Source: Rhodocollybia butyracea
Lineage: Eukaryota; Basidiomycota; Agaricomycetes; Agaricales; Omphalotaceae
DNA: 64,000 nt
Reading direction: 5' to 3'
Assembly: GCA_015501585.1 (NCBI GenBank)
Contig: JADNRY010000049.1
Location: 186,001-250,000, forward strand
In this document: one piece after another, positions 467 through 51,126 of the stretch
How positions within the stretch are numbered: position 1 is the first letter of the stretch
How the letters are laid out: each line of letters opens with the position of its first letter
Notes under the pieces: model-generated
Database searches by the model: none
The model's input: only the letters and a program-made list of their open reading frames with translations
Told to the model about the DNA's origin: nothing
Translations under genes and position numbers: made by a program

Positions 467-618
467 TGTAACGCCTACAGCACATTCATTGCCGTTAGCG
501 CCGATATTACATAATTAGTTCACTCTTATCCTCATACCACATACTTGTTTCGGTCTATTTCTCTAATAGAATGAGATCTTGCTCATGGTCTGAGGCATTA
601 AGAGTCAGGGCTCTTACA
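467..618 (+). repeat. 5' LTR of TR-GAG1 copy A
   Basis: This 152-bp direct repeat matches 1792-1943 and starts TGTAACGCC. It is followed at once by CTTTTTTGAGCA, which occupies the usual primer-binding position but lacks the TGG expected for a tRNA 3' end. The same motif follows the 5' LTR of TR-GAG2. Confidence 0.92.
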
Positions 619-661
619 CTTTTTTGAGCAACCTTGTCCTGAATAGGACTATTACAGCAAT

Positions 662-1759
662 ATGACCACACAACAGCACAACTCAAGCCATGACTCTGTC
701 ATGGCTCTGGCTTACTCTTTTCTTTCTCAAATCCTTTCTATGTTCCCTCATGATCCTCTCTCACACATCTCTGGGATCCTGGACTTCTCCTCCCAGGGAA
801 TTCAACAGCTGCTAGTCAACTTTAAGCAGCTCTGGGAACAACATGGTCTTTCAGTGGCTGGTAGGGATTTGGCAGAGGCAGTGGTGCAGGATTCAACATT
901 AAGATGTTGCTGGGCAGTGAAGGAAGAAGGTTTCCAGGCAGAGGTCTGTTTTCAGATGATAGAGTCTATTAAGAGACTGGGAGAAGAGTTTGGGATGGAA
1001 CTGTCCAAATCTCAAACACCACCTCCTGCTCCGAGTTCTCCATCACCTTTGACTGCTCCTACTGCCTCATCACCGACTCCCACGCTCGCTTCGAACACAT
1101 TGAACGCATTGAAATCATCTCCACATGCTCTGACATTGGTTTCACCCTCCAAACCCACTTCCCCTTCATTTCGACTCCAACCAACCTCAGAGTTTGCACG
1201 GGAGGTGGCTGAACTGCGGAAAGCAGGCCGGAAACTCGAAGTATTCATGGATGAACATGTCATGGGGCTCGAACACACAGCTGGCACACCGCCAGCTTGT
1301 GTTCATCTCTCAAACACTCCAACTGAGTGTACACCTGTGCCTTATATTGCCCCTGTGACTGCTGTTCCACCAACAGGCCTTTGTAAACATGTCAAACACA
1401 ATGTGTATGGTGCGTTTGGTTCGCTCTTGTTTCGTTCAAGTCGTTGCCCATCCCTATCTGGTACACTCATGCCATCACCCTCACCCACTGAAACTCCTCA
1501 TCACCATATTTGTGCTCCCAATCAATGCTCCCATTCATGGCGCTGGAGATCTACTGTCTCCAATGTGCCACCACCATCTCAATCTGGACTTAGTGTCAGC
1601 ATCCAGAGAATCCGGCGATTTTCACAGGACACTTTCTCTTCTTCTGCACTTATGGAAATTGCCAGCATACTACATCGTATGTTACCTATTAGATGCCTGT
1701 ATGTTTCTCTTTGTTATGTTTTCCCTTTTCCATCTTTCTCTTTTGTTTTTTTTGGGTAA
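662..1759 (+). CDS. Gag-like protein of TR-GAG1 (365 aa)
   Basis: This is the only protein of a small LTR element and by position is its gag, the presumed particle protein. The N-terminal 115 residues are predicted helical and hydrophobic-patterned. They are followed by a Pro/Ser/Thr-rich linker (about residues 119-170) and a short coiled-coil-like helix rich in E, R and K (about 178-205). The C-terminal third looks less constrained and ends in a hydrophobic run, so the true stop may be earlier. There is no CCHC zinc knuckle, protease or polymerase motif. The ATG lies 43 bp downstream of the 5' LTR. An almost identical protein is encoded by the copy at 20236-21171 on the minus strand, diverging where that copy is interrupted. 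The gag assignment rests on context more than on a sequence match. Confidence 0.75.
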   Translation: MTTQQHNSSHDSVMALAYSFLSQILSMFPHDPLSHISGILDFSSQGIQQLLVNFKQLWEQHGLSVAGRDLAEAVVQDSTLRCCWAVKEEGFQAEVCFQMIESIKRLGEEFGMELSKSQTPPPAPSSPSPLTAPTASSPTPTLASNTLNALKSSPHALTLVSPSKPTSPSFRLQPTSEFAREVAELRKAGRKLEVFMDEHVMGLEHTAGTPPACVHLSNTPTECTPVPYIAPVTAVPPTGLCKHVKHNVYGAFGSLLFRSSRCPSLSGTLMPSPSPTETPHHHICAPNQCSHSWRWRSTVSNVPPPSQSGLSVSIQRIRRFSQDTFSSSALMEIASILHRMLPIRCLYVSLCYVFPFPSFSFVFFG

Positions 1760-1791
1760 GATGGACCTGTGGGGTCAATCTAGGGGGCATG

Positions 1792-1943
1792 TGTAATGCC
1801 TACAGCACGTTCATTGCCGTTAGCGCCGATATTACATAATTAGTTCACTCTTATCCTCGTACCACATACTTGTTTCAGTCTATTTCTCTAATAGAACGAG
1901 ATCTTGCTCATGGTCTGAGGCATTAAGAGTCAGGGCTCTTACA
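1792..1943 (+). repeat. 3' LTR of TR-GAG1 copy A
   Basis: This second 152-bp copy is identical to the 5' LTR except for five CpG-site transitions. It is followed directly by the CTAGA duplication. Confidence 0.92.
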
Positions 1944-9721: not shown

Positions 9722-9958
9722 CATGCCCCCTAGATTGACCCCACAGGTCCATCTTACCCAAAAAAAAACAAAAGAGAAGGATGGAAAAGGGAAAACATAA
9801 CAAAGAGAAACATACAGTCATCTAATAGGTAATGTATGATGTAGTATGCTGGCAATTTCCATAAGCGCAGAAGAAGAGAAAGTGTCCTGTGAAAACCGCC
9901 GGATTCTCTGGATGCTGACACTAAGTCCAGATTGAGATGGTGGTGGCACAGTGGAGAC

Positions 9959-9990
9959 TATGGAAAGCCTAAGTATCACGGTCCAGTAAT
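9959..9990 (+). repeat. Left TIR of the 10.3 kb element
   Basis: It starts TATGGAAAGCC. The first 21 bases equal the reverse complement of the right end, and about 31 bases match if mismatches are allowed. Confidence 0.88.
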
Positions 9991-10329
9991 CAAATCTGAA
10001 GAAATTTCCAATGCCAGGACCCCATGTACTGCTCTTTCAATCTTTATAATTACATAGATAGATGTAGTTGTATAATATATTATTATAGTAATGGTAGTGG
10101 TCGATAATGAATACCGGCAATAATAATAGCTGTATATCCGTTGTTTGTTAATTCTTCCATGTCTTCACAGGTGGAATGGTCATGTATGTGTTTCGCTACT
10201 TCTATATTACTTTTCTGATGAAGTCTACAGACTCAAGTTCTGGTAAGTGTGTCCAGGACTCATTAAGGATACAATTTAATACTTAGATTCTCTTGCCAAG
10301 ATTATCACCTGGATAATGATATTTCTCTG

Positions 10330-13300
10330 ATGGAGGTGGATAAGGAGCCGGATTGTTCAGGACAACAGGAGCCAATGCACATGGGCGATCATAGAGAGGA
10401 TCCGTTGCTATCTGGGATGTCAGGGAATGAACTCATGACCCTTATACGTGCTAGAAAGATTGAGACCCATGAGAGTGAGTGTATCCTTGCTTTATGTATT
10501 CTATTTCTAACTATTATGCAGAGAAAAAGTTTTGTTATGCCCTCCCAACTAGACTTATAACCAATATCCCTTATATATCTGCCAACGATCCTCGTTTTCA
10601 TCACCTTAACTCTTCCTTGTATATCGGCTCTTCAATATGTCCCACCTACAGTGTATTAGAAGCCAATCCAAGTATTACTCCTGATCCCAGCCCTCTGTGC
10701 TTTCCTAAAGCCCCAAAATACATCCTAACCGAGGATCCACAATACCGTCGAGGGTATTGCTATACCACCCCAATAACTCTTACCCAAGAGTCCAAAGCAA
10801 CTGAGGTTGAAAACCTCTATAAAGTCGCTGTTCCACCTGGAGTGCGCCCTGTAGGATATGATACTGCTTCCCAGTCCTACATCATGTCTCCAGTCGAAGG
10901 CATGATAGAAATGCCTCCTGGAGTTCCCTTTGCGGTGCGCATTGATGACCACCCTGACAAAATTATTACTGTTGGTTGTGTCCAGACGTTGGACAGCTTA
11001 TGTGGATATTCCGAATATCCTCAAATATCTGAGGTATTCCATGAGCTTTTTGATATAACCTGGGGTACATCATCCACTGAACCAATTTTCCGTCTTGACG
11101 GTATCAAACTCAATCAACGGTCTCAGGCTGAGAAACCTGACTGCTATGACGGATCTGCTAGTCTTGTGATTACCGTTGAAGAGCTGTCTTCAGGGTTTGT
11201 GCAACCTGCTGTACAAGCTGTTACGGATGAAGCGCAAGTCATTCTGGGGAAGCTTCTGGTGCTATTGGCAGAGCTGTATAAGATTATTGTCCCACTTTGT
11301 ATTTCTAAGCAAGAATGGGAGGCATGGCTGTTTCGCCTCATGGATGTCAATGCATTATGTTGTGGGGCATTACACTCAGGCTTCTCCGGTGTCCAGAGAA
11401 ATCTATCGTCGTCATTTAATGGAGGATCACTGGCGTTGGTATTGGGCATCCTTACTGGGGCTTTTCATGTTGACTGGAATGATGACCCGAATGGGTACAC
11501 ACTACTTATAGCATTATTCTGGTTACCGCCAGGTATGCCCAAATACTTTATTCAGATTTTCTGGTACTGACAACTTGATAGGTAGCGCTGTTGGTGATTT
11601 TCTCCTTGCTCAAAGTGGGCTATATCTGCGGATTTCACTGGCTTCGAGTCACAAGGAACTGCCCATACTTTTGCCAATGATGGTTTTCCAGCCTGTGGGA
11701 CTTTCAATGACTGGCAATGTTTAATGGCGCTAGAGCAATACATGCAAGATTATAATTTTGCATGAATGGCCCGACGCGAGCCTAATCGGATCCCTCCGAC
11801 ATTTACCAACCTTCATGGCAATCTTGTTACTGTTGATATACCCTTCGATCCAGAGTTTGATAAGGAAAAGGTTGATTTCATGCGTGGACTGTTTCTAAAT
11901 ATGCATCAACTGTGCTCTTTTTACAATTTGGGGATGACCAAACATATGTTCAAACAGAATCAGGCAACTGCTTTGGCTGAGGCTGAAGCTCGGTATCATG
12001 ACTTTTGGATACCAGATAAACCATCACAATCATCTCTCACAGCCTCATCGTCCATGTCTACTGTATTACCGTCAGTGGATACTGATGGTACTGTGGTGCT
12101 GCATCGATCCTTGTGGTCTCATACTTCATCTCAAACAATGTCAGTCCAACCCACTAGAACCGGTCAGGGTGCCCTTCGTGTTTCTGCCTCTCAAACAACC
12201 ATGTCTGCTAAAGAAAGTAATTCTGCCCAGGCTGAGGACAATGGTCAGATATTTGAAGTTTCAATGATTTTAAAACATTGTTTCAATTTTGTGGTCTGTT
12301 TTCAACTGATTATCTATCACCATCTCTCTAATATTATCTTAACACAGACAGGAAATTATGAGTATGCGGTGCGATGGAAAGGGTTTGGGAAAAAAGATGA
12401 TTCATATGTGGCCGAGTCATTAATGAAGTGAGTTTAAGCCTATGCAATTATTACCAGTTTATTTACCTGGCTCCTTCAGTGCCCCCGATCTTATCAAAAC
12501 ATACAAGCAGATACATGGCACAAGCTTTGGACTAAATATTGTTAAAAATCTTGACTGTCATTTCCCACTATGACACGATGATAACCGTACCATCAAGGCC
12601 TTGAAGGAGCTTCTAGATGTCCAGAGGATGTCCCTAGAGTATAAGACTTTGGCTGCGATTGTCTCTAAAGCTGGCTCTGCATTGTTAGTCACACCAGCAG
12701 CTTGTCAAGTTGCAGTTGATTCAACGTCAAAGTGGAATCATTGCTACAAGGAATGGTCTGAAGATACTTCTCTTCTTCAACAAGATATCCTTCTTGATCA
12801 TCTCTTTTCTGCTGCCACTACTCTTAATCATGCAGTTTTGCTTACTCAAAACCTTGATATCATGATGTCGTCGTTATCATTATCCATTTGCCGGAGCCTG
12901 CGATTCATTTATCAGTTTTAAATGGTATTTGGACGGCATCTCTTTACTCAAATTGTGCAACAATATCTGGATGATGGAAAAGCAGCAGTAGAACGTCAGT
13001 GGCCAAGGTTCTCTGCACTTGTACACTCAGTTGTTATTTGGATTCAGCAAATCCAACAATACCGCATCTCTCAAAATTCAAAGCGGAAAAGAGGGGCCAA
13101 TCCAACAGAAACACCAACCGACTCAGTTCCTGAGCCGCTTTTGCTTGCAGAAGAGTGTTTTGCATTGTTCGATTTGCAAGACAAGCCTGTAGTGACCATA
13201 CCCGTACCCTCGAAAAGCCAGTCTCTACACACTCAGGAACTTCTGGTTGGGTTTGCTCAACAGTGTCTGGTGCAGATCTTAGTCAAATCAGTGATTTCTC

Positions 13301-14729
13301 CTGGCCTGGCATCTTTCAACAAGTATATCAACCAGTACCGAGAAAATGCCCCAACTCCCACCGCATCTGCAATTTTTTACTGTTGTATAACTCGTGGAGC
13401 CTTCCTTGATGCTTTGGTTGACTGGTTGGACAATGACAGTCTCTTTGCATCCAAAGTGATGCTACAAGTTGTATCCAATCCCATTCTGTTACTTGACACT
13501 GGGAAACATGGGGATGCATTCATTGCTAGCCAGATATTGCTAGGACATAATGTTTTTGCTTCAGTGGCTAGTTGGCTGGTCAAAGAATTTGAAGCAGGAG
13601 AAGTTCAAGAAGTTGCATTTGAACTATTGGAAATTGCTTCAGATGGCCTTTCACAAATGGCTAAATCCCGATGCCATCATAATACGGGTGGAAGCTTACA
13701 GCGGTCTCAGGCTCATCAAGTCACTCACAATAATCTCTTCATTGATGTTGCTCCTGTTCCATCTGATGCTCCTCTTGCCAATCTTCTCCCGTATGCCGAT
13801 GGACTGTGTATTGATATGCTTTCATTTATGATATGTGAAGCACTCAACAAGCAGAAAGGAGACATGAATGTTGGTGTGAGCTCCCTTTGGCGTCTCATTC
13901 GTGGAATGGATCCTGTCACCAACACAAAATCCAGTGTTCGAGACCCTGACCATTACGAACCTATACGTGCATTCAATTTCTTTCAATCTCTTGTCCGAAA
14001 AAATTTTGCCAAGCGGAATCTTCTTGCTAATGACTATACTCTCTCCAACCTCTTGGTGTTGCTTGGAACTGGTCAAGGTGTAATGACCCAGAGGTTTTTT
14101 AGTCATTATCTGGAAAAGAAATGGTTTACCACTGCAGAATCTTGGTATTCGAACGAGCTTATATGGTGGATCCTACACTTCCGGTCGATAATATGAAATG
14201 TTGGGGTACACCTTGTTTTTGGCTTGCATTTGAGCGCGATCCAGCTACTCATTGCCCTCTATTTGGTACCCGACTTTGTCCAATGTTTTCCGAAAATGTT
14301 CTGAAGCTTTGGTGTATATTTCGTGCTAAAGCTGATCAAACATACTCCGATGCGCTTGAACTAGCCAAGAACATTGGAATTGCAGGATTTGGCTCAGGTA
14401 TCACTCGAATGCAGTTTGCTAACACCTTTGCACTCTTAGCGCTTTGTCCTTTGCCTAGTTGCAACACTATGGCAAAAATTGTTCTAGCCAATAAGCATAT
14501 GGGTGCGTTCAAAGGATTGCAACGTCTAGGCCTTCGAGTGGATGCTCAGTCACCAGAAATGCATGTTCAGGCTGCCTTCCGCTGTGTATATGATGCACTC
14601 GACCATATGCTTCCCACCAGTTATCAAGCAAAAATCTGTTTCAATGCCATTTTTGTTGAACACTTGCTTTGCAAGGTTTCTCATTGGGAGAAAATGTTTC
14701 CAAAAAAAGCATACAACACCCTTCAATGA
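10330..14729 (+). pseudogene. TET/JBP-type 2OG-Fe(II) dioxygenase fused to a chromodomain and a large helical region (decayed)
   Basis: One long spliced reading path runs from the ATG at 10330. An intron of about 44 nt near 10468-10520 joins the first exon to a 350-codon frame. This contains FHVDWNDDPNGYTL (near 11465-11505), an H-x-D iron motif in the TET/JBP context, and after an intron at about 11532-11581 the segment GSAVGDFLLAQSGLYLRI. A frameshift near 11635 leads to GTAHTFANDGFPACG, whose His fits the second iron ligand. After a TGA (11763-11765) the path continues at 11766 with a PNRIPP block and a chromodomain-like segment (GQIFEV, then after an intron YEYAVRWKGFGKKDDSY). A helical C-terminal region follows (12601-14729). 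In-frame stops at 12571 and 12919 and a frameshift near 14150 show the gene is dead. Expected role when alive: oxidation of 5-methylcytosine in chromatin. I infer a single gene; two adjacent genes are possible. Confidence 0.72.
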
Positions 14730-14933
14730 ATGGCAGAGGTAGCACGCAAAGAAGAGACCGTGGTTGTAGGCAATGATAGTGATTCACAATCCTTTCCGTT
14801 TGACTTATCTATAGATTGAAAAGAGTTGGAAAAATGGATTGCAGAAGATTGACTACGTATTGGTATTTTAGTTTAAATCTGATTTTTGTGTGATAGTTCT
14901 GAATGTCAATAACCCAGTAAATCTAGATACATA

Positions 14934-16572
14934 TCAAAGACGCAAATTGCCAACTCCAAAATCTTCATTGTCTGAGTCAAACTCGATCTGAACATCAGGC
15001 TCGTCCTGGATTGGGATAGCGTTGTCCATAGGAATCTCGCCATTCTCATCGCTAGAGTCACCGTCGCCTGCTAAAATGATTCCATTATTAATTTACAGAC
15101 AGCTACCAGATTCAGTTTTCAATAACGTATCAGGTCCAGCCCCACCGTTTACTCCACCAAGATATCCTTCCACCTCGATCAATGGTTCCCCAGGCATTTG
15201 TTCAAATGCATCATTGTCCCAGCTGGGATCGCGAGCAAGACTAACATTTTCATCCCATTCTTGCATTTTCTGTGCCGAAACTGAACCTGGATCCTGGCAA
15301 AATCTTGCAAGCAGAAGATTATAGACATCCCAGACGTTCGATCTAGATATGACAGGCGTGCCCAGTTCATTGTAAAAAAATGAAATGGTCTCCTCAAAAG
15401 ATGGAGGAACAAGCTGGAATACTGGATGATCAGACAGGGCAAATATTTTTTCAACAGTTTCTACCTGAGCTAAGTCGGCAGGAAGCTAAAAACAGTCATA
15501 TTAGACTATTTTCTAATGCTCCAGTATTCTGTGTACTGACTGCAAAGTTCACTGCATCATAATCTTGGGGCAACATCTTGATATGAGCAGGGACACTGTG
15601 GGGAAGCACTTTGTTCTTGTCGTGACGTTTGCTGCACAGATTTCGCCGGTTATGGTAGAGATCGAGCTCAGCTTGAAGGTATGGAATAAAAACCCAACAA
15701 AAAACCAAACTAATACCTGTTTCAGTACTTGCAAAGATATAGATGTCTTTTGTACCTTTCAAGAGTGTTTTTGACTGAGTACCATCCATTATGCACACTG
15801 ATATCTAACAAATCCTCAAAACCAGGTGTCCATCAGTGCCGCAATTGACTCCACTCAATTTCTGGCATAATGTTCTTTTTATCCCACATATAACAATGTT
15901 GAATTGTTCTGGCAAGACTGGGATCTAGAGATTGTCGCAGAACAGTATGTGCATTAGCGATTCCAACACTCTCGGTTCCCATATCACTCTGCGTGACAAG
16001 ACAGATCACTGGAACAAATATATCAACAAGTATCAGCATCTTAAATTTTTGACTACACACCTCCATCACGTTTGACCACTTCAAAGTAGTAGAATAAATC
16101 ACGTCAAGTATAAAGGAGAACTTTTGGAGTACATACTTGGAAACTGCTATATCACACTCATGAAAGAGCAAGCTTTTCATCTCCAAAATACCAGCTTTTG
16201 GATACATTGCCCGAAGTTTTTCTACGATAGGCTTGATAGAGTCAGGAGTATGCTTTTGGGTATGTGTACCTTCAAGCCCCATTGCCACAATATATTCCTG
16301 GAAACAAGTAAGTCTGGATTGAACAGGTAAGATTAATCTATACAGAAAAATATTGCATACCCGATAGAATATTTTTGCTGATCCAAATGTTCTTTGTTTA
16401 TTGTTTTCCAAATTTTATTGACAGGCCACCACATCTTCCAGTAGACTAGGATTAGGTCTTGAATCATCTCCAGCGGTGCTGTAAGCTTCTTGTGAGTACA
16501 TTGCTAAATACTACATTTAAATAAAAAAAACTCACGGAGCTCATGTTTATACTGGTTCTTGTGGCAAGCCAT
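14934..16572 (-). pseudogene. rve/DDE integrase-like transposase of the 10.3 kb element (decayed)
   Basis: A spliced minus-strand gene starts at ATG 16572. Recognisable blocks in order are VYWKMWWPVNKIWKTIN, EYIVAMGLEGTHTQ, LRAMYPKAG, LLFHECDIAVS, LVTQSDMGTESVGIANAHT (the second catalytic Asp region), MPEIEWSQLR, TPGFEDLLD, FIPYLQAELD, KRHDKNKVLPHSVP and FYNELGTP-xxx-RSNVWDVY. It ends in an acidic tail with its stop at 14934-14936. These match, from memory, a widespread agaricomycete family annotated as integrase core domain proteins. The segment that should carry the first catalytic Asp, between AVS and LVTQSD, is reduced to about 120 nt of unrelated sequence. TGA at 15833-15835 replaces an expected Arg. 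The gene is thus inactive twice over. It is the presumed mobilising enzyme of the surrounding element. Confidence 0.78.
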
Positions 16573-16747
16573 GATACTCTGAACCTAACGTAGGAGTCAA
16601 AACAGAGTGGTGGCTTATAACTGACGAGGTTTCAAATCATCGCGTGATTCCAACTTGTTTTGAATTCGCAATTTTGGCAATAGCTGGAATTTCGCGTGAC
16701 TTCAATTTGTTTTGACTTTACGATTTGGACTGTTTCCACCCTTCTTT

Positions 16748-19641
16748 ATGGCTGCACAGCAGACTCACTTCTCAGTTGATCTCTCAACAAAAAATGAAGC
16801 TTCTGTATCTTGTCGATTCTGTCGTCAAATAATTGCACCTGGTGTAAAACGTCAAGGCTTTAAGAATACACGCAGCAACAATTGGCACTATGCCTGTGAA
16901 AAGTGTATGCCTGTCCTTCTTGACATGCAACAGAAGCAGTCCCAATGTCTGGTATTTCTCATTCTCTTGAGAGCTTATTGCTTTAACTGTTTGTGACAGG
17001 TACTGGAGGAGTCTATTTACAAGACACCACTATACAACGACCGCCAGCAACCCCTGACCATGCTGAAATTCATACAGCACTGAAAGCAGCACAAAGTAAA
17101 GGTAGTCATTGATATTCATGTTCTTTTGACATATTTGCATTGATGTTTTCTATTTCCAGAAGCGCCTGCTTCTATGCGCTTACCTGTTGCATTTGGAGAA
17201 GCACATAAAGGTCCCACAATAAATGTCCCTCAATCAAGATACATAAATCAAAATCAGTATTCTGCAGCGCCATATAATGGAATACCGCCTCCTTCCTTTA
17301 TTCCAAACTCATCTGGTCATTCTTCATCGAGTATGTCTTATTTACTTGAATAGTTTGAAGACTTAATGAATTATTTCCTACAGGTCATATGCCCCAATTG
17401 CATCGTGCGGAGTTAGCAAAATACGCTAGTTGTTCCTATGCTGCTAGTGCAGGGAGTGCAAATGAGGTTATCAACTTTGAATACAGTATTGGTTATGGTA
17501 CTTTGACCAAGAATTTCACTGCATTGGAGGTAAATATTATTGCCCTAGTTGATTACTTGTACACTAATAGATATACAGGGGAGTCCAATTGAAGGCCATT
17601 CTGGAGTGTCTGCACAAGTGACAGTCCCCGAGATCAAGTTGAATATAGAGAACATTCTATTCCCCAAGCTTTTTGCGGCATTCCCTGATTTTGACTTTGA
17701 CTTTTCTTCTATGACTCTAAGGCACATTGACAAGTGGCAGGACCTTGATATTGTTCCAGAGGACCAACCCATTTTTTATTCGGCCTGTCTAGTCAAATCT
17801 AATGGCACCAAACCACTGAAAAAGGATACGTATCAGTTTAAAAGGCAAAAGCCATTCCGTGTAGCATGGGTTCTCGACAGAGCACAGTTTATCTGCTTTG
17901 AGACTTTTCAGAATCCAGTATTTGGTTTACCTGCAGTTGCGTAACTTGTCTGACTATTATTTGCAGGATGAGAAGTCTAGTGTAGTAGCGTCGCAGCCCC
18001 AGCTAAATAAAGGTTGATCTCATAAGCCTGATTAATATTCTTCTCTTTGTTCTACCTCATATCTCAATAGATTCAAAATGTGTACCTTTGACAGCTTCAT
18101 CTAGGAAGACCAGATTGTCATCATTGAGCTCAAATGAGAAATCATCTTTCTTGCTACCAGACGCCGAGACAGACTCCTCCACATCAGAAGCCCCTATATC
18201 AATAAGCAAGATATCGCAACCTCTATTTCTACCGTCAAAGCAAACCCAGGCATCCAGAAGCACTGGTTCATTATCGTTGGCCTCAAACAAGGAACCCTCC
18301 CCATCAGCCTTTGACAATAATCAGCAATCACTGTCTGATGGCACGGATTCTCAGTCTGTACTTGCCCAAGTAGCTTCCAAATGGAGTAGCTCAGTGAGTT
18401 TTAAAACTTCATATGTCTGATTTACTGGTAACTTATATCAACTAGGCCATAAGTCCTCCTCCTTTGCCTCAGCGGAAGTATACAAAGGCAAAGACGTCGA
18501 CTGAGCTATATCGCTCACCAGATGCACAAAAATTATCACGAGGATTATTTGCAGGTGGAATTCCTATGTCACAAACTCAAAGTATGTGGTCATTTTTCAG
18601 TTGCCTCTAAATATTTGAACCAAACTGGACTTTCAGAGCTTGGCGGTGCAGACACTAAGATTGTGCGGGTATATCCGGTTCCTGTCCTGCTCTTTCCAGC
18701 ACTTATTGACAATGACCAAATTTCCAAAAATTTTGATCCTGAAGCTGCCAACTGTTGCAGTTTCCATGGGACTCTCGAGATTCACACCACCAGTCTTGGG
18801 TGTGGAGCCATGAAGGATTGCGTTGAAGGATATCTTTCTATCATTGTCTCGCCTACCAAACACTACAAAGGTCCTCAGGGTTTGGTTGCTGTAAAGCGCC
18901 CTTTTGTTTCTGGGAAATTGGACAGCAACTTGAGCCATTACCCAGCTAGGACAAAATACACCAAATGTTGCATGGAGTGTGCTTTACTGATACGGTGCAA
19001 ATCACTTCACCGCCATGTTCTCAACTATGTATCAGTTCTGGAGGCGAAAAATGGTCCTTGTCCGCTTGGTATCTACGACTTGTGCTTTGTACTGGCTGCG
19101 ATGGTATCATGCAAAGGGGAGGGTACCAGAAAGGCTGAGTCATACATTGTTGAAGACCGTATTGAAGGAACGTGGCAGAAGTATATCCTTAACTCTCGTG
19201 CTGTCCCCTTGATGGCTGCCAATGAGCAGGGATATGAACGTGCACAGTTTATGTGTTTTCTACAACACCTGCAGTTTGACAAGACAAAGGGGCTAGCGTA
19301 TATCTCAGACTGGCAAGGTACATTGTTTTTGATTCTAAGCAAATAGGGAATCTGATCAATGGTCGACTGTAGGTGTTGGTGATGAGCTATCTGATCCCCA
19401 ACTTATGACTCATCCAACGAGACTGAGCGAGAGCATAATGGAACAAGCCTTCGTGGACAAGGGTGACACCATCTCACCTCCAGCACTCTATGGAGATGGG
19501 AATATTGGTTCGGCCTTTATGCGCTTCCCAAACAAGCACCAGTGTAATTGTTATTGTCACTGGGCAGAGCTCAGCCGTCCCAGTCATGATGAGATCTCAT
19601 TTTTGACAGCAATGGACCTTGGTACTCAGATAGCACAGTAA
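16748..19641 (+). CDS. Alpha-kinase (MHCK/EF2-kinase type) with N-terminal Cys-rich domain, multi-exon
   Basis: This is an atypical protein kinase gene. The first exon (ATG 16748) encodes a Cys-rich module with CRFCRQII and, after about 30 residues, HYACEKC, likely zinc-binding. Downstream exons encode a beta-rich region (17579-17940) and a Ser/Lys-rich linker (18070-18530). The alpha-kinase domain carries ESYIVEDRIEGTWQKYI, FLQHLQFDKTKG, AYISDWQG, LSDPQLMTHP, the glycine loop GDGNIGSAF and the zinc motif HQCNCYCHWAEL. Introns are short with GT-AG borders, for example 16952-16999, 17102-17159, 17331-17383, 17530-17578 and 19318-19372. I found no stop or frameshift in the spliced path of very roughly 700 codons. 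It lies inside the 10.3 kb transposon as cargo. Substrate unknown; alpha-kinases of this kind are numerous in basidiomycetes. Confidence 0.8.
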
Positions 19642-19862
19642 ATCCTCAATCGCTTCTTTTATGCTTCATCAAGTTATGCTTTCTACTCGTTACTTTTTAT
19701 GCTTATGCCTATATGTCTCTCCATATGAATATGATTATGAACCATGCTCATAAATCCTCAATCGCTTCTTTTATGCTTCATCAAATTATGCTTTCTACTC
19801 GTTACTTTTTATTCTTATGCCTATATGTCTCTCCATATGAATATGATTATGAACCATGCTCA
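19639..19862 (+). repeat. 112-bp tandem duplication after the kinase gene
   Basis: Two head-to-tail copies (19639-19750 and 19751-19862) differ at only two or so positions. The first copy begins with the kinase stop codon TAA, so the 3' untranslated region is duplicated. The contents are AT-rich without a gene. Confidence 0.85.
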
Positions 19863-20257
19863 TCCATGTTTGCCCACTGCCTTCTGAGAAGCCTCTGAAG
19901 CTACTGTTCTGGTGCATTAACGAAGGTCCATACATATCTCAGAAACAATTATCCCTCATGCCAATGTTTACAATTGGTTCACTTTCCTTCCTCATTTCAT
20001 ATTTTGGCATGACCCAGTGCAACAATGGTGGCACTCTTAGCTTTCTCAAATAATGTATTCTATGTTGAGAGTTATCCCTGTCATCACTGACTATCGTCAA
20101 GCTTGTTTGTTAAAGTTTGTTTGTGCGCTCCAGTGCATGAACAGGCTCTAACAAACAAATTACTAACCACAAATATAGGTTATCAATTGTTAAAGGTGTC
20201 TTCGGGGTCCTTAGCCCCGATATAGTATATCAGTATCAAATCCAGGGTTGATAGAAA

Positions 20258-20289
20258 TTTACCGGAGTGTGATACTTAGGCTTTCCATA
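20258..20289 (-). repeat. Right TIR of the 10.3 kb element
   Basis: Read on the minus strand it starts TATGGAAAGCC and mirrors the left end. It is followed by GGAGAC (20290-20295). Confidence 0.88.
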
Positions 20290-21171
20290 GGAGACAGTTG
20301 ATCTCCAGCGCCATGAATGGGAGCATTGATTGGGAGCACAAATATAGTGTTGGGGAGTTTCTGTGGGTGAAGGTAATGGCATGAGTGTACCAGATTGGGA
20401 TGGGCAACGACTTGAACGAAGCAAGAGCGAACCAAACGCACAATACACATTGTGTTTGACATGTTTACGAAGGCCTGTTGGTGGAACAGCAGTCACAGGT
20501 GTACACTTGGTTGGAGTGTTTGAGAGATGAACACGAGCTGGCAGTGCTCCAGCTGTGTGTTTGAGCCCCATGACATGTTCATCCATGAATACTTCAAGTT
20601 TCCGGCCTGCTTTCCGCAGTTCAGCCACCTCCCGTGCAAACTCTGAGGTTGGTTGGAGTCGAAGTGAAGGGGAAGTGGGTTTGGAGGGTGAAACCAATGT
20701 CAGAGTGTGTGGAGATGATCTCGATGTGTTCGACGCGCTCAAAGCGAGCATGGGAGTCGGTGATGAGGCAGTAGGAGCAGTCAAAGGTGATGGAGAACTT
20801 GGAGCAGGAGGTGGTGTTTGAGATTTGGACAGTTCCATCCCAAACTCTTCTCCCAGTCTCTTAATAGACTCTATCATCTGAAAACAGACCTCTGCCTGGA
20901 AACCTTCTTCCTTCACTGCCCAGCAACATCTTAATGTTGAATCCTGCACCACTGCCTCTGCCAAATCCCTACCAGCCACTGAAAGACCATGTTGTTCCCA
21001 GAGCTGCTTAAAGTTGACTAGCAGCTGTTGAATTCCCTGGGAGGAGAAGTCCAGGATCCCAGAGATGTGTGAGAGAGGATCATGAGGGAACATAGAAAGG
21101 ATTTGAGAAAGAAAAGAGTAAGCCAGAGCCATGACAGAGTCATGGCTTGAGTTGTGCTGTTGTGTGGTCAT
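20290..21171 (-). pseudogene. Gag-like protein of TR-GAG1 copy B, truncated by insertion
   Basis: From the ATG at 21171 the protein is nearly identical to the gag of copy A, with small in-frame length differences in the Ser/Pro linker and before the conserved KHVKHNVY segment. At 20290 the frame runs into the TIR of the 10.3 kb element and continues only about 18 codons into it. The rest of the gag lies on the other side of the insertion, at 9722-9958. Its function is as for copy A, and the break is due to insertion rather than point decay. Confidence 0.8.
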
Positions 21172-23080: not shown

Positions 23081-25786
23081 TCATTCGGAAGGTTTATCCT
23101 TTCCGATACTTACGGAGGTGTCCGACTCATTGGGGTGTTCTGATGATTCAAGTTCATCGTCTCTATTCCTAGAAGAGACATAATATTTAGTGAGGGCCGT
23201 GTGGTCCTCAATGCGTGTGATGGCTCTGACCATCACTTCTAATTTGGCATACTCCGGAACGATCCCCTCGTTCGTGAGTTGCCTGATAATATTGAAGGGT
23301 AATCCCTCAATGAACCGTTTCCGCATTGTTGCATCATCTGGTGTTTGGAGCATCCGTGATGCCCATCGTGTAAGTGAGGAATAATAATCCCTCACACCCG
23401 TATCGGGTGAATACTCAATAAGGTCAAACTGCCGTGCAGCTTGAGGAATGGTCGTTGCTTGGATGCAACGATCAAAGACACCAATGATGGCGCCTTCAAA
23501 TGTCCACTTAAGGACAGTGCGGTGTATACCAGCGACTTCGTCGTTATACCAGTCAAGGGCTTTGCCCTTTAGAAACATGCCAAGCACGGCAGTCCGTGTA
23601 GCATCGTAATTGTCACCACACATGCGGTTGACTACCATCCATTGGAGAAGTGACATTAGCCACCGCTCGAAGACATCGACATCCGGAGATCCGTCATAGA
23701 CCTCCGGAGATCCGTCATAGACCTCCGGAGATGGAACTTTAAGAGCTTTACGGCTCTCAATGGGAGGGATAGGATTCCCTACCTTATCTCGAATTTGTTT
23801 ACGGTACACTTTGTGTACCTTGTGTTTCCATCGGGAACGACGTTTGTCGTCACCTGTTGTTTCTCGCATCTTAGATGCAAGTGAACGCAGTATTTTACGG
23901 CGCTCATTAGGAGTAATTTTACCCTTACAGGTAGCAAATTTGTCTAGCCAAGAGGCATCAGACGAAGAGTCAGTATTTGACTCGGTATCACTAGAGTCAG
24001 ATGATTCATCCGACCATGGCCTGCGTTTGCGGCCTTTCATCAGGAAAAGCCGTTTTTGCCTAGGTGACCCCAGAGTGGCCTAAAGCAAACTAGGTGACCT
24101 ATGAATCCTATGGCATCCTAGGAATTTGGGCTCGTCCCTTGCCAGTCAAGGCTCTTGAGGATTCCCTAGGGTATCCTAGGCAAACCCAGGGCAAGCCTAG
24201 GTTTGCCCAGGTTTGCCCAGGTGTTCCCCAGGTGTTCCCCAGGAGCACCTGGGCAAACCTGGGCAAACCTGGGCAAACCTAGGCTTGCCTAGGGAGTCCT
24301 CAAGAGCCTTGACTGGCAAGGGACGAGCCCAAATTCCTAGGATGCCATAGGATTCATAGGTCACCTAGTTTGCTTTAGGCCACTCTAGGGTCACCTAGGC
24401 AAAAACGGCTTTTCCTGATGTTGGATTTAGCACTCTTGTGCTTCCTCCCCCCTTCACGGGATTTTTTGCTAGGCACTTTCGCTCCTGCATTATTGCTTGG
24501 TCCTGGAAAGGACTCAGCGGGTGGAATGTAAAATTGATCCCAGATTTCTCTGGGAGTAGTCAATTTATCAACGGGTATTCCGTCGACATTATATCCCACC
24601 ATTTGGTCGGGAAGCCCAGATGGCGCGAATCCGAAATCTCGGAGACTGGTGTTATGTTGGCGTTGAATCGCTATGCGACTCATCCAATCTTTAGCTACTC
24701 CCAACGGAAGTGGCTGTGGTTGCAACTCAGCCAATACCGTTGGTACTGGCATTGAACTTGGCTCTGGTGCATTGCTGGGCGGCAATTTGGGCAGTCTTAC
24801 GGTAGTGTGTACTACCGGATGGGCAACACTTTGTGTCGCCGGGGCGATGGATATGGTAGTAGGAACTACCGGAAGGGTACCGTGTTGCGGTCCCATACTG
24901 GAGTGATCTCCAGTAGTGTTCGGTACAACTACTGGAGGTGTAATAATATTGGGTACCACTGGCGCCCTTGCAGTAGGTAAGTACATTGTCTTTCCTGTGG
25001 TGGTATCGCTACTACCTGATTGAAGTTACGAGGTAACTTCGGTTTATTGTTGATGTTCACCACGCTTTGTGGTGAGTGGGATTTGGTCACAGGTAATGGC
25101 CTGGCACCTCGCAGTGTCTGAGACGCTGCCTCCGCATTGGGACTCTGTCTCATGCGGGATGTGTTTATGGGTGTCAGTGTAGTTACTGACACTGGTGCGT
25201 ATTCCTGTCGAAATACAGGAACATGACGGAGTGACTTGGTCATCCCTTGTGAATACTGTTCGTCCAACAGTGATTGTTGGACTGACGGTGCCTTGGGCAC
25301 AGTCTCACGCCATTGGCATACCGAGTTGTTTGTCTCGGTATGAATATATGGTGTTGTGTTGTGCAATACCGGTGGTGTGACGGCAGGCCGTCTCGGTGTG
25401 GGTGCAGCAATAGTGGTTCTATTGCTGTTTCTTGATGAAGAAGATCTTTCTTCATCAGATCGGATGCTAGATGCATCCCATTTCTCAGTTATATTGAGAA
25501 TACGATTGAGTACTTGCGTACTCTTGTCGAGTGATGCCGCTACATCTCGTAGCGCAGAAGAAATCTCACTTAAACCCTCTCGGGTCGGCCGTTTCTTACA
25601 AATAGTCATAGACTGTTCATTAGGTGGACTCTTGTCCTGCCTGTAGTGCCGTCCTTCAGACACACGCACGGAATGAGTCGCTGATGCGACTGAATAGATT
25701 GATTGTGGTGACACGTCACCACGAATGGAAGGTGCGCGATCGCGCACGCTCCGATATGACTTCTCTGATTGATTTCGAGAGGTCAT
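23081..25786 (-). pseudogene. Gag of TR-GAG2, about 790 codons, split and frameshifted
   Basis: From ATG 25786 a Ser/Arg-rich N-terminal region and a Pro/Thr/Val-rich middle run to about 24975, where one frameshift occurs. The frame then continues to 24418, is cut by a foldback element and resumes at 24040. The last part (24040-23081) starts with an acidic Ser/Asp tract and contains the gag core FERWLMSLLQWMVVNR, KGKALDWYNDEV, FDRCI, YYSSLTRWASRM and FIEGLPFNI, typical of Ty3/Gypsy capsid regions. The sequence EVYDGSP occurs twice in tandem. There is no zinc knuckle, protease or polymerase. Removing the foldback and one AT restores the frame. Confidence 0.85.
24041..24417. mobile_element. CAGGAAAA foldback element (copy in TR-GAG2 gag)
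   Basis: This nearly complete 377-bp palindrome has arms of about 170 bp that begin CAGGAAAAGCCGTTTTTGCC. It is flanked by AT on both sides (24039-24040 and 24418-24419). The centre contains tandem TGGGCAAACC-type units in both orientations. It interrupts the gag frame precisely, with one AT serving as the duplication. Related elements are at 34707-35032 and 50907-51124. Confidence 0.85.
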
Positions 25787-25954
25787 TGAGACAGCAAATG
25801 ATATAGCGGGACGGAAAATGGAGCGGGTTTTGTATAGCTTGTGATGTGAGTTGGAATAGTGGTTGTTATACTTGGTAGTATAACTGTTTTTAGCTTGTTA
25901 AACTAATAGCTTTGTGTTATTCACACAATAGTAATTTTTTGATGTTCAAAAAAG

Positions 25955-26207
25955 TATAACGCGCCCTATGGGCAAAGTCCTTAAGAACACCGGTGAACAC
26001 AACAAATAGGATACTATTGTGTGTACGACGGTGTAAAAGACTAGCTAGACTCTTAAGTAATTGTACGATACTTATAGTAACGGATTTATTATATAATTAA
26101 TAATAAATAGAAAGATAAGATAGACCGTTTGGTCTATCGGCGGTGTCTAGGATGACCGTATCGCCGGATACGGTCAGTGGTGATTATGGAGAGGCAGAGG
26201 CATTACA
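25955..26207 (-). repeat. 5' LTR of TR-GAG2
   Basis: This 253-bp LTR is followed by the AAGGA duplication at 26208-26212. Confidence 0.92.
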
Positions 26208-27633
26208 AAGGAATTATGAGGGAAGGCATCCCTTGCACTAAGACCCCCAACGAGCTATGTTAAGATGTGGACTTTACAGTCCGTAACAACGGACCAGAAC
26301 AATCCCGAGGAAACCATAGAGGTCTATTTGTGGCACCGGTCATAACTGTGAAGATGGTAGAAACATGCTTAGCGGTCCCACGGAAAGCTATGCGCTGGGA
26401 TAGCCTTGGCAAATTGAAATGTTTGATCTTAGAAATCAAACACGGGAGGTCTTATCCATTAAAGCCGACTATCGGGAATCACTTGTACATACTCAGCACA
26501 GTTGCTTGAGACTATCATAAGTGGTGTTGTTGGAAAGCTAGACAACAGGCCTTCTCAAGAGAATGTTAATTACACTCAGGATGGACAGAACTATCCGAGG
26601 AATAGAATGAAACTCACCCAAGGGAAACCAGGCGGCGAGTGATCATGAAGCATAAAGGTACTCCTGACCCCGGAGAATTGTGGAGTAATTGGAGAAACCT
26701 TGCTCAGATCAAAGCACTTTAAAATTATGTTAATCCTCACAAAATCATATTTTACCTCTGATATATATCCAAGAATGGACTATTTCTTTATTGTGTGTAC
26801 CATAAATAGGCTGGAGTTTCCTTTCCGAGCCAGATTCCTCTGTTCCACTCTCTTTCCGTCTCTCTCTGTATCTGTTTCATCTATTTTTCATATTAAACTC
26901 TCTACTCAGTATATAAGCCAGATATATTTATTCAATAAGACAAGTTACTTGCCACCTCCCCTGTACAAGATTGGTTGTGTTCCTTCACCTTGAAGTTTCT
27001 TGCCCTCGACTTGACTGCTAAGACCAGTGCTCCATAGAATGTCTCCTCAGGACTAGTAGCATGATGCCTGCTGACTTGGTTATCTTTAGAAAGTAATAAA
27101 CTTCATGAAGTTACTTACCACCTCAGTGTTTGAGATTGGTTGTGTTTTCTTCACCTCAGAGGATCTTTCCCTTGATTTGTATGTTAGGAAGTGAGTAGTT
27201 TCTTCAAGGAGTCTGATTTACTGTCATATTACTTGCTTGGCAGAATTTGGCCTGTAATAGAATTTCACAAATGTCCTTTGGCCCACTTGAGAATCTGATT
27301 GAGTCTTGAGCGTGTGAGTTCCCTCGAACTCCAGATCAACCTTAAATCTAGTTGCTTCCTTAGAGGGGATGGCTTCTAGTAAGGAATTATCAGCTCCAGA
27401 GTGAGGGTTCCTTAGTCGACTTCCCTGTGAAGTTATGCAAGCCACTAAGATTGTGGTACGAGTTCCTAGTGATTAAGTTCACTCACAATATCATAGCTTG
27501 GCCCAGAGTTTGGTTGAGGACTTTACGGCACCACAGCAGCTAGTGCCAGAGTTTGCCTAGGGTTGTTGACAAACCTCGAGATTACTATTCTAGCTAGAGC
27601 CAGAGCTTGCCCAGGAGAATCTTAGTTTTGTTG

Positions 27634-27741
27634 TATTGGTTTTGGTTTTGATTATTTGGTTTTGGACACATACACATTATTGGTTTTGGTTTGGATTATT
27701 TGGTTTTGGACACATACACATTATTGGTTTTGGTTTGGTTA
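27634..27741 (+). repeat. 44-bp minisatellite, about 2.4 copies
   Basis: The unit TATTGGTTTTGGTTTGG-x-TTATTTGGTTTTGGACACATACACAT is repeated head to tail within the unassigned insertion. It holds no coding sequence. Confidence 0.8.
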
Positions 27742-27997
27742 TATTGATTCGGACATCCTGACATTCCCTTGTACATATGTACACCCAACGAGGCCTCCCT
27801 CGACTCAGTTTTAAGAGTTGTCCAAGCTTAGTTACCCATGTTAATGCAATGGTCTTGAACCTGGAGCAACCGCGTGCATATCTCCAATACTATTGAACTT
27901 TCCCTCGGGGAATCTCTGACAACCCGCCCTCACTCCCTTACATATCGATAGTCTGGTTAGGTGCGGTAGTGTTTTTGTTAGGTTGTTTTATAGCACC

Positions 27998-29133
27998 TTT
28001 CACACACCTACACCTAAATACCCAAATACTGTACATGCCTGAAGTAGCCCAGTTCACTGGACCACTTTTGATTATGGTATGGAACAATGTTCCGTTTGTT
28101 TGGATGCCAACACACAAAGTGTGTTTTCAAAACATAAAATGTTTAGCATCTAAGGCTCCAATATTGAAGCCCATTGATCCAAGTACAGAAGAGCCAATAT
28201 GGGTCATCTGTGACGCCTCTGTATCAGGAGTCGGAAGTATGTACAGCCAAGGCCCTACTTGGCAGACATGTAGACCTGCGGGATTTTTGTCCCGCAAATT
28301 CATGGCTGCACAACATAATTACAGAGTATTCAAATTGGAGACTCTGGCCATCCTCGAAGCTCTTCTCACATGGGAAGATAAACTTCTTGGATATCATATC
28401 CATGTGGTCACTGACCACAAAGCTTAGAAATTTCCTTACACAAAGGAAGCTTTCAAGGCGTCAAGCACGCTGGATGGAATATCTATCCAGATTTGACTTC
28501 AATATTTGTTATATCAAAGGTATAACAAACAAAGTAGCAGTTACTACAAATCCGATATGCCTAATGAACATCATGAGGCACACAAATATGTCAATGGGGA
28601 TGTCCACATTGACCGAAATCTTGACAATCTACTGCAAGGAAGAATTGAAGAATTAGTTAGCGAGCATCTTGCTAGCATGAACACTTGTTGATCTGCTAGA
28701 ATTCTACAAAAGAAGAATCAAGCAAATCCTGTCGCCGAGACTATAGAGTCTCGTGACACTGAAGCAGCAGAATTACAATCTGCCATTAAGGAAAAGGAAC
28801 CAACAGTTCCTGTTCCCAATACTATGGAAGAAGATATTACTATCTTCAAATCTTGCGCAAGAGGTGAAGAACCTCTTACTAGTCATCCTGAAAAAGATGA
28901 TTTTATAAAGAACATTAAGTGTTGTTACGCTAATGATCCCTTATTCTCAAAGGTACTCAATAATCCTGAGCACCATAAGCCATTCTCAGTTGAGAACGGC
29001 CTTATCTATACTGTAAACCAGGGCAAAGAAAAAGTTCTTTGCATTCCTAACAGTAAAACTGTTAAAGGACAGAGCTTGAGAGGCATAATAGCCGAACAAG
29101 CTCATGAAGTGTTAGGACACTTCAGAGGTCAAA
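27998..29133 (+). pseudogene. Ty3/Gypsy element, RNase H and integrase N-terminus
   Basis: This is the continuation of the fragmented Gypsy polyprotein. RNase H motifs are WVICDASVSGVGSMY (first Asp), FLSRKFMAAQHNY, FKLETLAILEALLTWEDKL (Glu) and HVVTDHKA (third Asp). A stop-like lesion follows near 28426, and RQARWMEYLSRFDFN with YIKGITNKVA continues in another frame. The frame at 28824-29133 holds the linker and the first half of the integrase H2C2 zinc module, EQAHEVLGHFRGQ. At AGGTCAAA (29126-29133) a MITE interrupts the module, and the second half follows at 29824. Confidence 0.85.
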
Positions 29134-29815
29134 TAGGGTTTTAAAGTGCGGTGCAGTTTGGTTTTGTCAGCCATTTTGGGCAAACCGATAACTGCACCAG
29201 TGGTATATTTTTTAAATTTCAGCAAACCTTGCACTGAACTGATAAGAACCGCCTCACCGGTGCCGGTTCAGTGCAGTTATGCGGTTTTGAACCGGTTTAG
29301 CAATAACCCGGTGCAAACTGGTGCGGAACCGGTGAAAACGGCGGTTATACCAGTTTCAAAACATCATATACCCTGTAGTGTTGCCTAATAAAATAATCTC
29401 TACTTACGAACAGTGTATAAAGGTATTCTTACATTAGTATAAAGTAAATTTGATGTGGTCATCAAGATTTTGATTGTATACAGCTCACAGGCGCCCAAAT
29501 CAAATGTGGCACATGGGCGTCTGTGAGCTGTATACAATTAAAAATTTGATTACCAGATCACATCTACTTTACAATACATAAAGTCAGGCTTGAAAAACAC
29601 AGTTAATAAATTATTTTCATTATGTAAATTGCACCGGTTGACCACCGGTTACCACTGGTTTTGATCAGTTATGCAAATTCTTCAATTTCCAAGAACCGCA
29701 AGCGCACCGGATGCAAACCGCTGCACCGGTGCAACCTTTATTTACCCTCACTGCGGTTCAGTGCAGTGCGGTTGTCGGTTATCCAATGGTTTGTGCACCG
29801 CACTTTAAAACCCTA
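29134..29815. mobile_element. hAT-type MITE (TAGGGTTTTAAAG ends)
   Basis: The terminal inverted repeats start TAGGGTTTTAAAGTGCGGTG and pair for about 22 bp. The 8-bp duplication AGGTCAAA lies at 29126-29133 and 29816-29823, the size expected for hAT transposases. The interior is rich in ACCGGT-type short palindromes and has a central inverted repeat (GATTGTATACAGCTCACAGG at 29472, partner ending near 29539). It has no coding capacity and would need a hAT enzyme in trans. Confidence 0.92.
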
Positions 29816-29823
29816 AGGTCAAA

Positions 29824-29932
29824 GGACTTCCGATTACATCCGTCGGTGGTACTGGTGGCCGAGGGCCAACAGTAACATCGAAGAATTTTGTAAGGCATGC
29901 GTTGAATGTCAACGTGCCAAAACTAGTAATAA
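29824..29932 (+). pseudogene. Ty3/Gypsy integrase, second half of the zinc module
   Basis: Directly after the MITE duplication the frame resumes with RRWYWWPRA and FCKACVECQRAKTSNK. This supplies the two cysteines of the H2C2 integrase zinc-binding domain whose histidines lie before 29133. The sequence then enters a long foldback element and the integrase catalytic core is absent from the window. Confidence 0.85.
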
Positions 29933-30415
29933 GAAATCAGAACATTTTGTGGAGAGAATAGGCTGTAATTGCCCGCTCTAGGCCGGAGGAGGTCAAAGCT
30001 GTATGACCAAATAGGGAAATATATGATTACATACAGGTGGTGTTGAGTCAAAGTTGGGCTCAGTAATGGCATGGCTTCTCAAGGTCTGAGGTCAGTAATA
30101 CATATCTGAGTGCTGTAGTATACTAGCTACGCCCTCCAGGTGTTATATTTGACAATATGTGGGCAGGAATATGTACATGGAGTGATCAATGGTGAGTAAC
30201 CATCAAAATTCGCATTTTTGAGGAATTAAATACTAATAATGAGTGTCTAAGCGCAGGTAGGACCTTAAACCTCGGTAGGTATACTCTCCAACATAGTATG
30301 CACTCGATCCGTGTCCAAGAACCATTTATATGGCACCAGATGCGATGGTATACACTGATCTTTATTGATTTTCCCTCAAAACTCGATTTTTTGAGGAATT
30401 ATCATGGAATATTGG

Positions 30416-31242
30416 GGCCTTAAAAGTATCCAGGGGGCTAAGACGTCGTATATAGACTGTACTATATAGTATTAGTCTTTGTCATATGCAAGAACAATTT
30501 ATGCAGCACCTGAAGCGATGGTATTCCCTGATCTGTATGGATTCTGCCAAAAAATGCGATTTTCAGGAAATAAAACAGGCATAGAGTGTGCTATACACCT
30601 CAGACTATGCTCAAACTTGGGTAATCATGTATTCGAATCATGTGGAGGCCCTCCAGACCAAAAGGTTTGAGTATGTACATCTCAATGTCACGATCTGAAC
30701 TTTGAGCCAAGTAGAGATATCCTATATATAACGCGCCCTATGGGCAAAGTCCTTAAGAACACCGGTGAACACGACAAATAGGATACTATTGTGTGTACGA
30801 CGGTGTAAAAGACTAACTAGACTCTTAAGTAATTGTACGATACTTATAGTAATGGATTTATTATATAATTAATAATAAATAGAATGATAAGATAGACCGT
30901 TTGGTCTATCGGCGGCGTCTAGGATGACTGTATCGCCGGATACGGTCAGTGGTGATTATGGAGAGGAGGAGGCATTACACTATATAACACCTGGTAGTTG
31001 TTGAATTCGATTCGAAGACATGTTTCCCAAGTTTTTAGTATGATCTGAGACTTGTAGCACACTCTATGCCTGTTTTATTTCCTGAGAATCGCATTTTTTG
31101 GCAGAATCCATACAGATCAGGGAATACCATCGCTTCAGGTGCTGCATAAATCGTTCTTGCATATGGCAAAGACTAATACTATATAGTACAGTCTATATAC
31201 GACGTCTTAGCCCCCTGGCTACTCTTAAGGCCCCAATATTCC
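30416..31242. mobile_element. Foldback element B inside element A
   Basis: Inverted arms begin GGAATATTGGGGCCTTAA and run for about 240 bp each (from 30416 and back from 31242). They share features such as AAGACGTCGTATATAGACTG and GTGCTGCATAAAT with their partner arm. The centre is occupied by a solo TR-GAG2 LTR. It has no coding sequence. Confidence 0.75.
30727..30979 (-). repeat. Solo LTR of TR-GAG2
   Basis: This single 253-bp LTR is nearly identical to 22487-22739. It is flanked by the perfect duplication CTATA (30722-30726 and 30980-30984). It shows an earlier full insertion reduced by LTR-LTR recombination. Confidence 0.92.
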
Positions 31243-32410: not shown

Positions 32411-32635
32411 ATGCCGAGCCTGTCACTCCTCCTCCTGGCTGCACTCCTCCTGAAAGACCTGTTTGCTGGCGTAGCAGCTGCGCCTGCAGTGGTAATTCCC
32501 GACTCGAACAGCATTCAGGGTGATATTAAAACAACCATCGAGAAGGAGTACCTCAAAGACTACCAAACCTGTTTGAACTCAGTCAGCTCGAAGAATGTAG
32601 TTGCAATGTATGAAGATTATTCAATCCGTATCTGA
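32411..32635 (+). CDS. Putative small secreted protein, 74 aa
   Basis: From ATG 32411 the first 26 residues form a signal-peptide-like segment (MPSLSLLLLAALLLKD, then a small-residue stretch ending AAAPA with a plausible cleavage site). The mature part is about 48 residues, mostly hydrophilic, with a single Cys. No domain is recognised. It lies in the central region of foldback element A, so it may be a captured gene, or a fragment that has lost downstream exons. The lack of Cys pairs makes a typical disulfide-rich effector less likely. Expression would have to be shown. Confidence 0.4.
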   Translation: MPSLSLLLLAALLLKDLFAGVAAAPAVVIPDSNSIQGDIKTTIEKEYLKDYQTCLNSVSSKNVVAMYEDYSIRI

Positions 32636-38110: not shown

Positions 38111-38245
38111 TCATAGCCTTCTTTCCTAGTAGTTGTATCATAGATATATCGTAACTACATTTTGATCGTCCATATGTATCGCTTTGCCCGCTAGCAATTC
38201 GGATATCTTTCCACGTGATTGTAAAGCTTTTTTTTAATTATATCG

Positions 38246-38593: not shown

Positions 38594-38600
38594 CTCCCCC

Positions 38601-43623: not shown

Positions 43624-43722
43624 CAATAGAGACGAGGGTTATGCGGGAAGAGAAGATAAAAGATTTGATTCTGGTAATCACTATAAGGCTGGCTGTATCA
43701 GGCGGACTCGGGGCCCATAACC

Positions 43723-51124: not shown

Positions 51125-51126
51125 AT

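Follow-up and report, generated by a model that had tools for sequence, protein, structure and literature searches.

In this study, we examined a 64,000-nucleotide stretch of the agaricomycete Rhodocollybia butyracea (Agaricales, Omphalotaceae; contig JADNRY010000049.1, positions 186,001 to 250,000; hereafter the window), and within it one single insertion of 10,331 bp at window 9959-20289. Our findings support a model where this insertion is a decayed, low-copy transposon of the IS3EU kind, carrying an alpha-kinase and a TET-chromodomain protein that would ease the silencing of its own family, a reading to which we give a probability of about three in four. The element is very likely a TET-carrying (TET+) IS3EU.

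The left end, TATGGAAAGCCTAAGTATCAC, begins at 9959 and its exact reverse complement finishes at 20289. The terminal inverted repeats (TIRs) measure 31 bp, with the first 21 perfect, and GGAGAC adjoins both ends as a 6-bp target site duplication, read directly. With the element removed and one GGAGAC kept, the joined flanks align in one piece to window 535-1943 on the opposite strand (1,410 columns, 94.6% identity), and the uninterrupted target that the first-pass annotation had placed at about 1550-1560 is found there, at 1556-1565; the perfect 21-bp TIRs and the GGAGAC duplication that it reported are likewise present as described. The TIR alone is insufficient as proof, since 511 inverted pairs that match perfectly over 21 bp and lie at 5-20 kb from one another occur in the window, against none in 20 shuffles, only one of the 511 being the element's, with 417 pairing the target repeat to its inverted copy and 93 others. 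The insertion is thus proven by the duplication, the empty site, and the existence of further copies.

Those copies were sought through the 21-bp end, allowing at most 3 mismatches, across a genome of 95.6 Mb in 1,381 contigs. Eight places matched, against two for a backward control. Six of the eight pair up as the ends of three elements, a seventh is an unpaired end on contig C459, and the last, on C238 with 3 mismatches, was taken as chance. Three copies are therefore TIR-bounded (E816, which is the window copy, E759, and E927), each with a 6-bp duplication, and a fourth, on C459, is truncated and stops short of the second TIR. E759 spans 6,823 bp between copies of TATTGG and lacks the counterpart of window 13113-16832, that is, the whole transposase; E927 spans 16,910 bp (C927, within 180154-197063) between copies of AGAAGG, lacks window 15950-17463, and carries an 8-kb insertion. 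The TATGG..CCATA ends and the 6-bp duplications recur in all three complete copies, a point that the first-pass annotation had proposed to check, with TIR pairing of 31/31 in E759 and E927 and 28/31 in the window copy. Aligned blocks are 95.0-98.4% identical among copies, short TIR matches left aside. Gene 1, the TET-chromodomain gene, and the kinase gene have left sequence in four of four copies, hence in each of the three TIR-bounded elements, and none of the copies found by the end search encloses the transposase only or an unrelated filling. The family appears to be low-copy in this genome, as counted by its ends, and the window copy is decayed. The 8-kb insertion of E927 has an open frame that looks gag-like by eye; the best protein match to gene 1, P0001, a database entry of this species, joins that frame to the TET gene and is a misleading gene model.

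As described in general, IS3EU elements have TA..TA termini, usually a 6-bp target site duplication, and an IS3-like DDE transposase (PMC10045372, PMC12730594). In the main text of Kojima 2025, TET+ IS3EU families are reported from seven Pucciniales species, with one family in Tuber indicum; they show 6-bp duplications, TIRs longer than 30 bp, and TAYGG..CCRTA ends, and every family has an alpha-kinase opposite to the transposase with the TET gene between the two, the rust TETs being of PU type and that of Tuber of PE type (HxE) (PMC12730594). Our element shares the duplications, the ends, the TIR length, the opposed kinase, and a TET/JBP gene with these families, and differs from them, as they are described there, in its HxD motif, its chromodomain fusion, and its Agaricomycete host (PMC12730594). 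The survey of Agaricomycotina in the same text found TET+ Kyakuja, Zisupton, EnSpm, Plavaka, and Helitron2 but not IS3EU, and the words chromodomain and Rhodocollybia are absent from that main text (PMC12730594). What is new relative to it is the Agaricomycete host, the TET-chromodomain protein of about 1,470 amino acids, the gene order, and the TET sequence. The first-pass annotation was right to propose an IS3EU-like element that carries both a TET-chromodomain gene and an alpha-kinase, and sequence of the two cargo genes recurs in 3/3 TIR-bounded copies; the link of TET and kinase to such an element, which that annotation thought undescribed, had in fact been described, for TET+ IS3EU with alpha-kinase, in the text of PMC12730594. 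In the literature searched for alpha-kinases on IS3EU or other fungal transposases, only this paper fits, by title.

Membership of the Kyakuja-Dileera-Zisupton (KDZ) group is ruled out by the 6-bp duplications of all three complete copies, the reported sizes being 7 bp for Kyakuja and 8 bp for Dileera and Zisupton (PMC12730594). A PE-type TET is ruled out as well: HxD stands in 23 of the 24 alignment rows with letters there and HxE in none, the exception being P0001, which has an unrelated N-terminus. The gene-1 TET hence lacks the HxE hallmark of the sole type so far reported, in the text of PMC12730594, on IS3EU outside rusts. With CcTet and the AG-type TETs of Kyakuja/Zisupton it shares the TET fold, the HxD..H iron ligands, and a host among Agaricomycetes, whereas the transposon superfamily differs and the main text of PMC12730594 makes no mention of a chromodomain in AG-type TETs. 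AG-type TETs are recognised by residues equivalent to Gly331 and Asp337 of CcTet. Even with the E-value limit set at 10, a gene-1 TET profile did not retrieve CcTet chains, and no rust-named sequence stands among its 15 matches.

The architecture of gene 1 emerges from its homologues and from the C459 copy, where splicing at GT-AG sites yields a reading frame of roughly 1,470 residues, interrupted by two frame shifts and three stops. Residues 18-1470 of P0002 (1,475 amino acids) align in pieces to window 10515-14828, and the alignment of P0004 reaches 14843; for that reason the frames at 12.6-14.8 kb belong to the TET-chromodomain protein and make up its C-terminal half, which the first-pass annotation had not recognised. 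In the window copy an in-frame stop lies immediately before 11766. Homologues of 1,454-1,529 amino acids occur in Stygiomarasmius, Dendrothele, Paramarasmius, and two species of Marasmius; Stygiomarasmius also has longer ones, as do Mycena and Paxillus, and those of Lentinula and Gymnopus are partial; the viral contigs searched gave no match. The C-terminal region of about 700 amino acids (window 12600-14840) is conserved across Agaricomycetes (P0002-P0005, P0007-P0009, P0011, P0012), and no Pfam family matched it in the window frames or in the five homologues scanned.

The N-terminal domain is predicted, by fold only, to be a TET-fold dioxygenase. A structure model of the Dendrothele bispora homologue P0013 (predicted local distance difference test, pLDDT, 87.1) has a TET/JBP fold, and TET chains (CcTet, CMD1, TET2, NgTET1) top both of its fold comparisons. 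It replaced an earlier, poor model with P0010 as first row (pLDDT 54.1), for which the best 50 of 335 PDB matches reached no better than E 0.03 and were to chromo or chromoshadow domains. Among the sequence searches, Pfam Tet_JBP (PF12851) matched neither the window frames nor the eight homologues scanned, and its four weak, sub-cut-off matches across the genome all fall outside the element copies; the N-terminal 500 residues returned nothing beyond chance from Pfam, NCBIfam, or solved-structure sequences; and the TET part met, among solved-structure sequences, one chance match without TET in one search and none in another. The distal iron-ligand His is present in 18/18 alignment rows and missing from the window copy itself. 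As for the chromodomain, Pfam scores it above the cut-off in four of five homologues scanned (P0003 falls under), and the family profile matches a solved CDYL chromodomain at 3.8e-14. The TET-chromodomain gene claimed by the first-pass annotation thus stands through its homologues, by fold for the TET part, but in the window the chromodomain reaches 16.1 bits against 25.1 and PF12851 is not matched.

Gene 1 lies on one side of the transposase gene and the kinase gene on the other, the kinase (plus strand) and transposase (minus strand) being head to head. The transposase of the window copy has no Pfam match; on the C459 copy three acidic residues, D, D, and E, were chosen by eye (WAFDQH, TQSDMG, LQAELD). 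The window copy is dead, since deletions took the distal iron-binding His from its TET domain and, from its transposase, the first catalytic Asp, losses that the first-pass annotation had missed. The search for kinase homologues gave none at E <=0.001 but says little, as its query words were drawn from residues 1-500, which precede the kinase domain.

PF02816 has 14 matches genome-wide, three of them in the gene-1 element copies, and six of the eight further kinase contigs were compared with the element genes. In three of these six (C712, C583, C823) a match to the element transposase lies within about 2 kb of a kinase, and gene 1 found no match at E <=0.01 in any of the six stretches. On C823 the pair sits in a complete element of 5,948 bp (25737-31684) with TACGG ends, a 70-bp perfect TIR, and the duplication AACGAG; for the pair on C712 no ends were found. 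The TET-less C823 element resembles the window element in its 6-bp duplication, its alpha-kinase opposite the transposase, and a related C-terminal part of the transposase, and differs in having no gene-1 match and in the weakness of the transposase match (E 5e-7, 26% over 113 residues). Since alpha-kinases stand beside related transposases without TET elsewhere in the genome, TET looks like cargo: as far as this genome tells, transposase and alpha-kinase look like the backbone and TET like an optional addition. Two further alpha-kinases, at C180:54335-59550 and C850:91764-96756, lie within inverted repeats that seem, by eye, to be accompanied by 7-bp duplications (GTACTAG and ACCAGGC); these are perhaps a sister group of kinase-carrying transposons.

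With substitutions polarised against the majority of copies and C-to-T counted on either strand, 211 of 1,676 CpG cytosines (12.6%) had changed to T, against 68 of 11,624 other cytosines (0.6%); the TCG context was highest (87/553), and E816 was hit at 74 of its 478 CpG positions. Such a CpG-specific C-to-T pattern is what deamination of 5-methylcytosine would leave, and DNA methylation is likely a threat to the element family. Between pairs of element copies CpG loss amounted to 75/153, 64/129, 35/62, and 71/112, and in six other repeat pairs of the window to 24/43, 8/22, 7/13, 4/17, 2/4, and 1/6. CpG sites thus decay strongly in repeats of this Agaricomycete, in the six window pairs as in the element, with TCG highest in the latter; hypermutation is said, in the text of PMC12730594, not to be detected in Agaricomycotina.

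Overall, we suggest that the transposase would have mobilised the element through the TIRs, with the kinase as its old partner. The chromodomain would bring the TET-like enzyme to histone-methylated, CpG-methylated copies, and the enzyme would oxidise 5-methylcytosine there, easing the silencing of the family; an anti-methylation role of this kind is plausible. The window copy itself, having lost active-site parts of both enzymes, would be capable of neither transposition nor oxidation. Several observations weigh against this interpretation. The gene-1 TET family is without known activity; its fold was modelled on a homologue, with template modelling (TM) scores to TET chains of only 0.3-0.4, and no sequence profile from Pfam, NCBIfam, or solved-structure sequences ties the domain to TET. 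The order here is TET, transposase, kinase, against TET in between in the TET+ IS3EU published in the text of PMC12730594. Of the transposase and alpha-kinase reported by the first-pass annotation, the kinase scores above the cut-off in the window (28.2 bits against 21.3), although PF02816 detects it in three of four copies and not in E927, whereas the transposase scores just under the cut-off for the PF24764 integrase core, 25.4 against 26 bits, and does so on the sister C459 copy only, spliced by eye. Finally, no protection by TET is seen in the element copies, because their CpG loss is about as heavy as that of other window repeats, and the pattern may be plain decay.

This last resemblance would fit a host TET-chromodomain gene simply picked up by the transposon family as passive cargo, with no role in escaping silencing. 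Homologues of 1454-1529 amino acids in several Agaricales also fit that account, as does the retention of part of gene 1 in E759 although the transposase is lost; yet gene-1 sequence persists in 4/4 copies, and the capture of TET by 11 transposon lineages, reported in the text of PMC12730594, argues for a benefit to the transposon, and we consider passive carriage quite unlikely. The dioxygenase might instead be in use on another base or make another product (N6-methyladenine, thymine, or a hypermodified cytosine), for instance to mark transcription and not to demethylate. The nearest folds include CMD1, an enzyme that makes a glyceryl adduct, and CcTet, with N6-methyladenine as a further substrate (activities from the text of PMC12730594), though the sequence is far from both; conversely, the CpG-specific transitions point to 5-methylcytosine as the mark met, and we hold another substrate to be unlikely. 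That gene 1 belongs to a different transposon that jumped into an IS3EU is highly improbable: nesting does occur in the family, as the insertion in E927 illustrates, but the left TIR, gene 1, and the downstream sequence are collinear in four copies at 95-98% identity. We therefore retain the decayed IS3EU whose TET-chromodomain protein would counter its own silencing. A bolder version, which we put forward tentatively and would not bet on, holds that gene 1 represents a further transposon-borne TET class beyond PU, AG, and PE, fused to a histone-methyl reader and independently captured by mushroom IS3EU elements; a single protein would locate silenced heterochromatin and oxidise the DNA methylation there, and the transposon family would thereby lift its own silencing at both linked marks.

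Table 1. Features of the element and its target site (window coordinates).
Feature	Position	Strand	Basis
Empty site: uninterrupted target copy inside the inverted copy of the target repeat	1556..1565	-	Joined flanks align to 535-1943, 94.6%
Target site duplication GGAGAC, left	9953..9958	.	Direct reading
Left TIR, 31 bp, first 21 perfect, begins TATGG	9959..9989	+	Sequence comparison of ends
Gene 1: predicted TET-fold dioxygenase, chromodomain, and C-terminal region of ~700 amino acids; broken here	10330..14843	+	Homologue alignments; start read on C459 copy
HVD, the putative HxD iron-binding motif of the TET domain	11466..11474	+	HxD in 23/24 alignment rows with letters there
Deletion point: 220 bp lost, among them the LHSG stretch that holds the distal His of the TET domain	11636..11637	+	Piece kept in 3 other copies
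Chromodomain, three exon pieces	12250..12532	+	Pfam 16.1 bits, cut-off 25.1, in window; homologues stronger
Transposase, rve/integrase type, broken here	14934..16572	-	PF24764 on spliced C459 copy; end points by eye
Deletion point: 307-bp piece with first catalytic Asp of transposase gone	16091..16094	-	Piece seen only in C459 copy
Alpha-kinase gene, last two exons open	16748..19641	+	PF02816 28.2 bits, cut-off 21.3; start codon and upstream exons by eye
113-bp tandem duplication behind kinase gene	19639..19863	+	98.2% identity
Right TIR, ends CCATA	20259..20289	-	Sequence comparison of ends
Target site duplication GGAGAC, right	20290..20295	.	Direct reading

The window holds other repeats besides. 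Short palindromic elements at 24038-24420 and 50904-51127 end in CATCAGGAAAA..TTTTCCTGATG and resemble the CATCA..TGATG ends of PlavakaB as given in the text of PMC12730594. Long open frames at 38240-44070, between 354-bp direct repeats (96.9%), are by eye likely a Copia-type long terminal repeat retrotransposon. At 29933-33374, inverted repeats of 473 bp, 99.4% identical and 3.4 kb end to end, may mark a young TIR element; no duplication was seen by eye around this pair.

The pathway that links trimethylation of histone H3 lysine 9 (H3K9me3) through HP1 to DIM-2 is that of Neurospora. In this fungal methylation pathway, the chromodomain of HP1 reads H3K9me3 and directs the cytosine methyltransferase DIM-2 (PMC13297926). 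A chromodomain joined to a TET fold, if true, would make the transposon protein a reader-eraser working against that very link between H3K9me3 and DIM-2, and the idea is testable, as other mushrooms, Dendrothele bispora CBS 962.96 among them, have full-length homologues. If our reading is true, IS3EU elements would have acquired TET genes on more than one occasion, next to a single transposase-kinase backbone, and whole TET families would escape sequence profiles and be found by fold.

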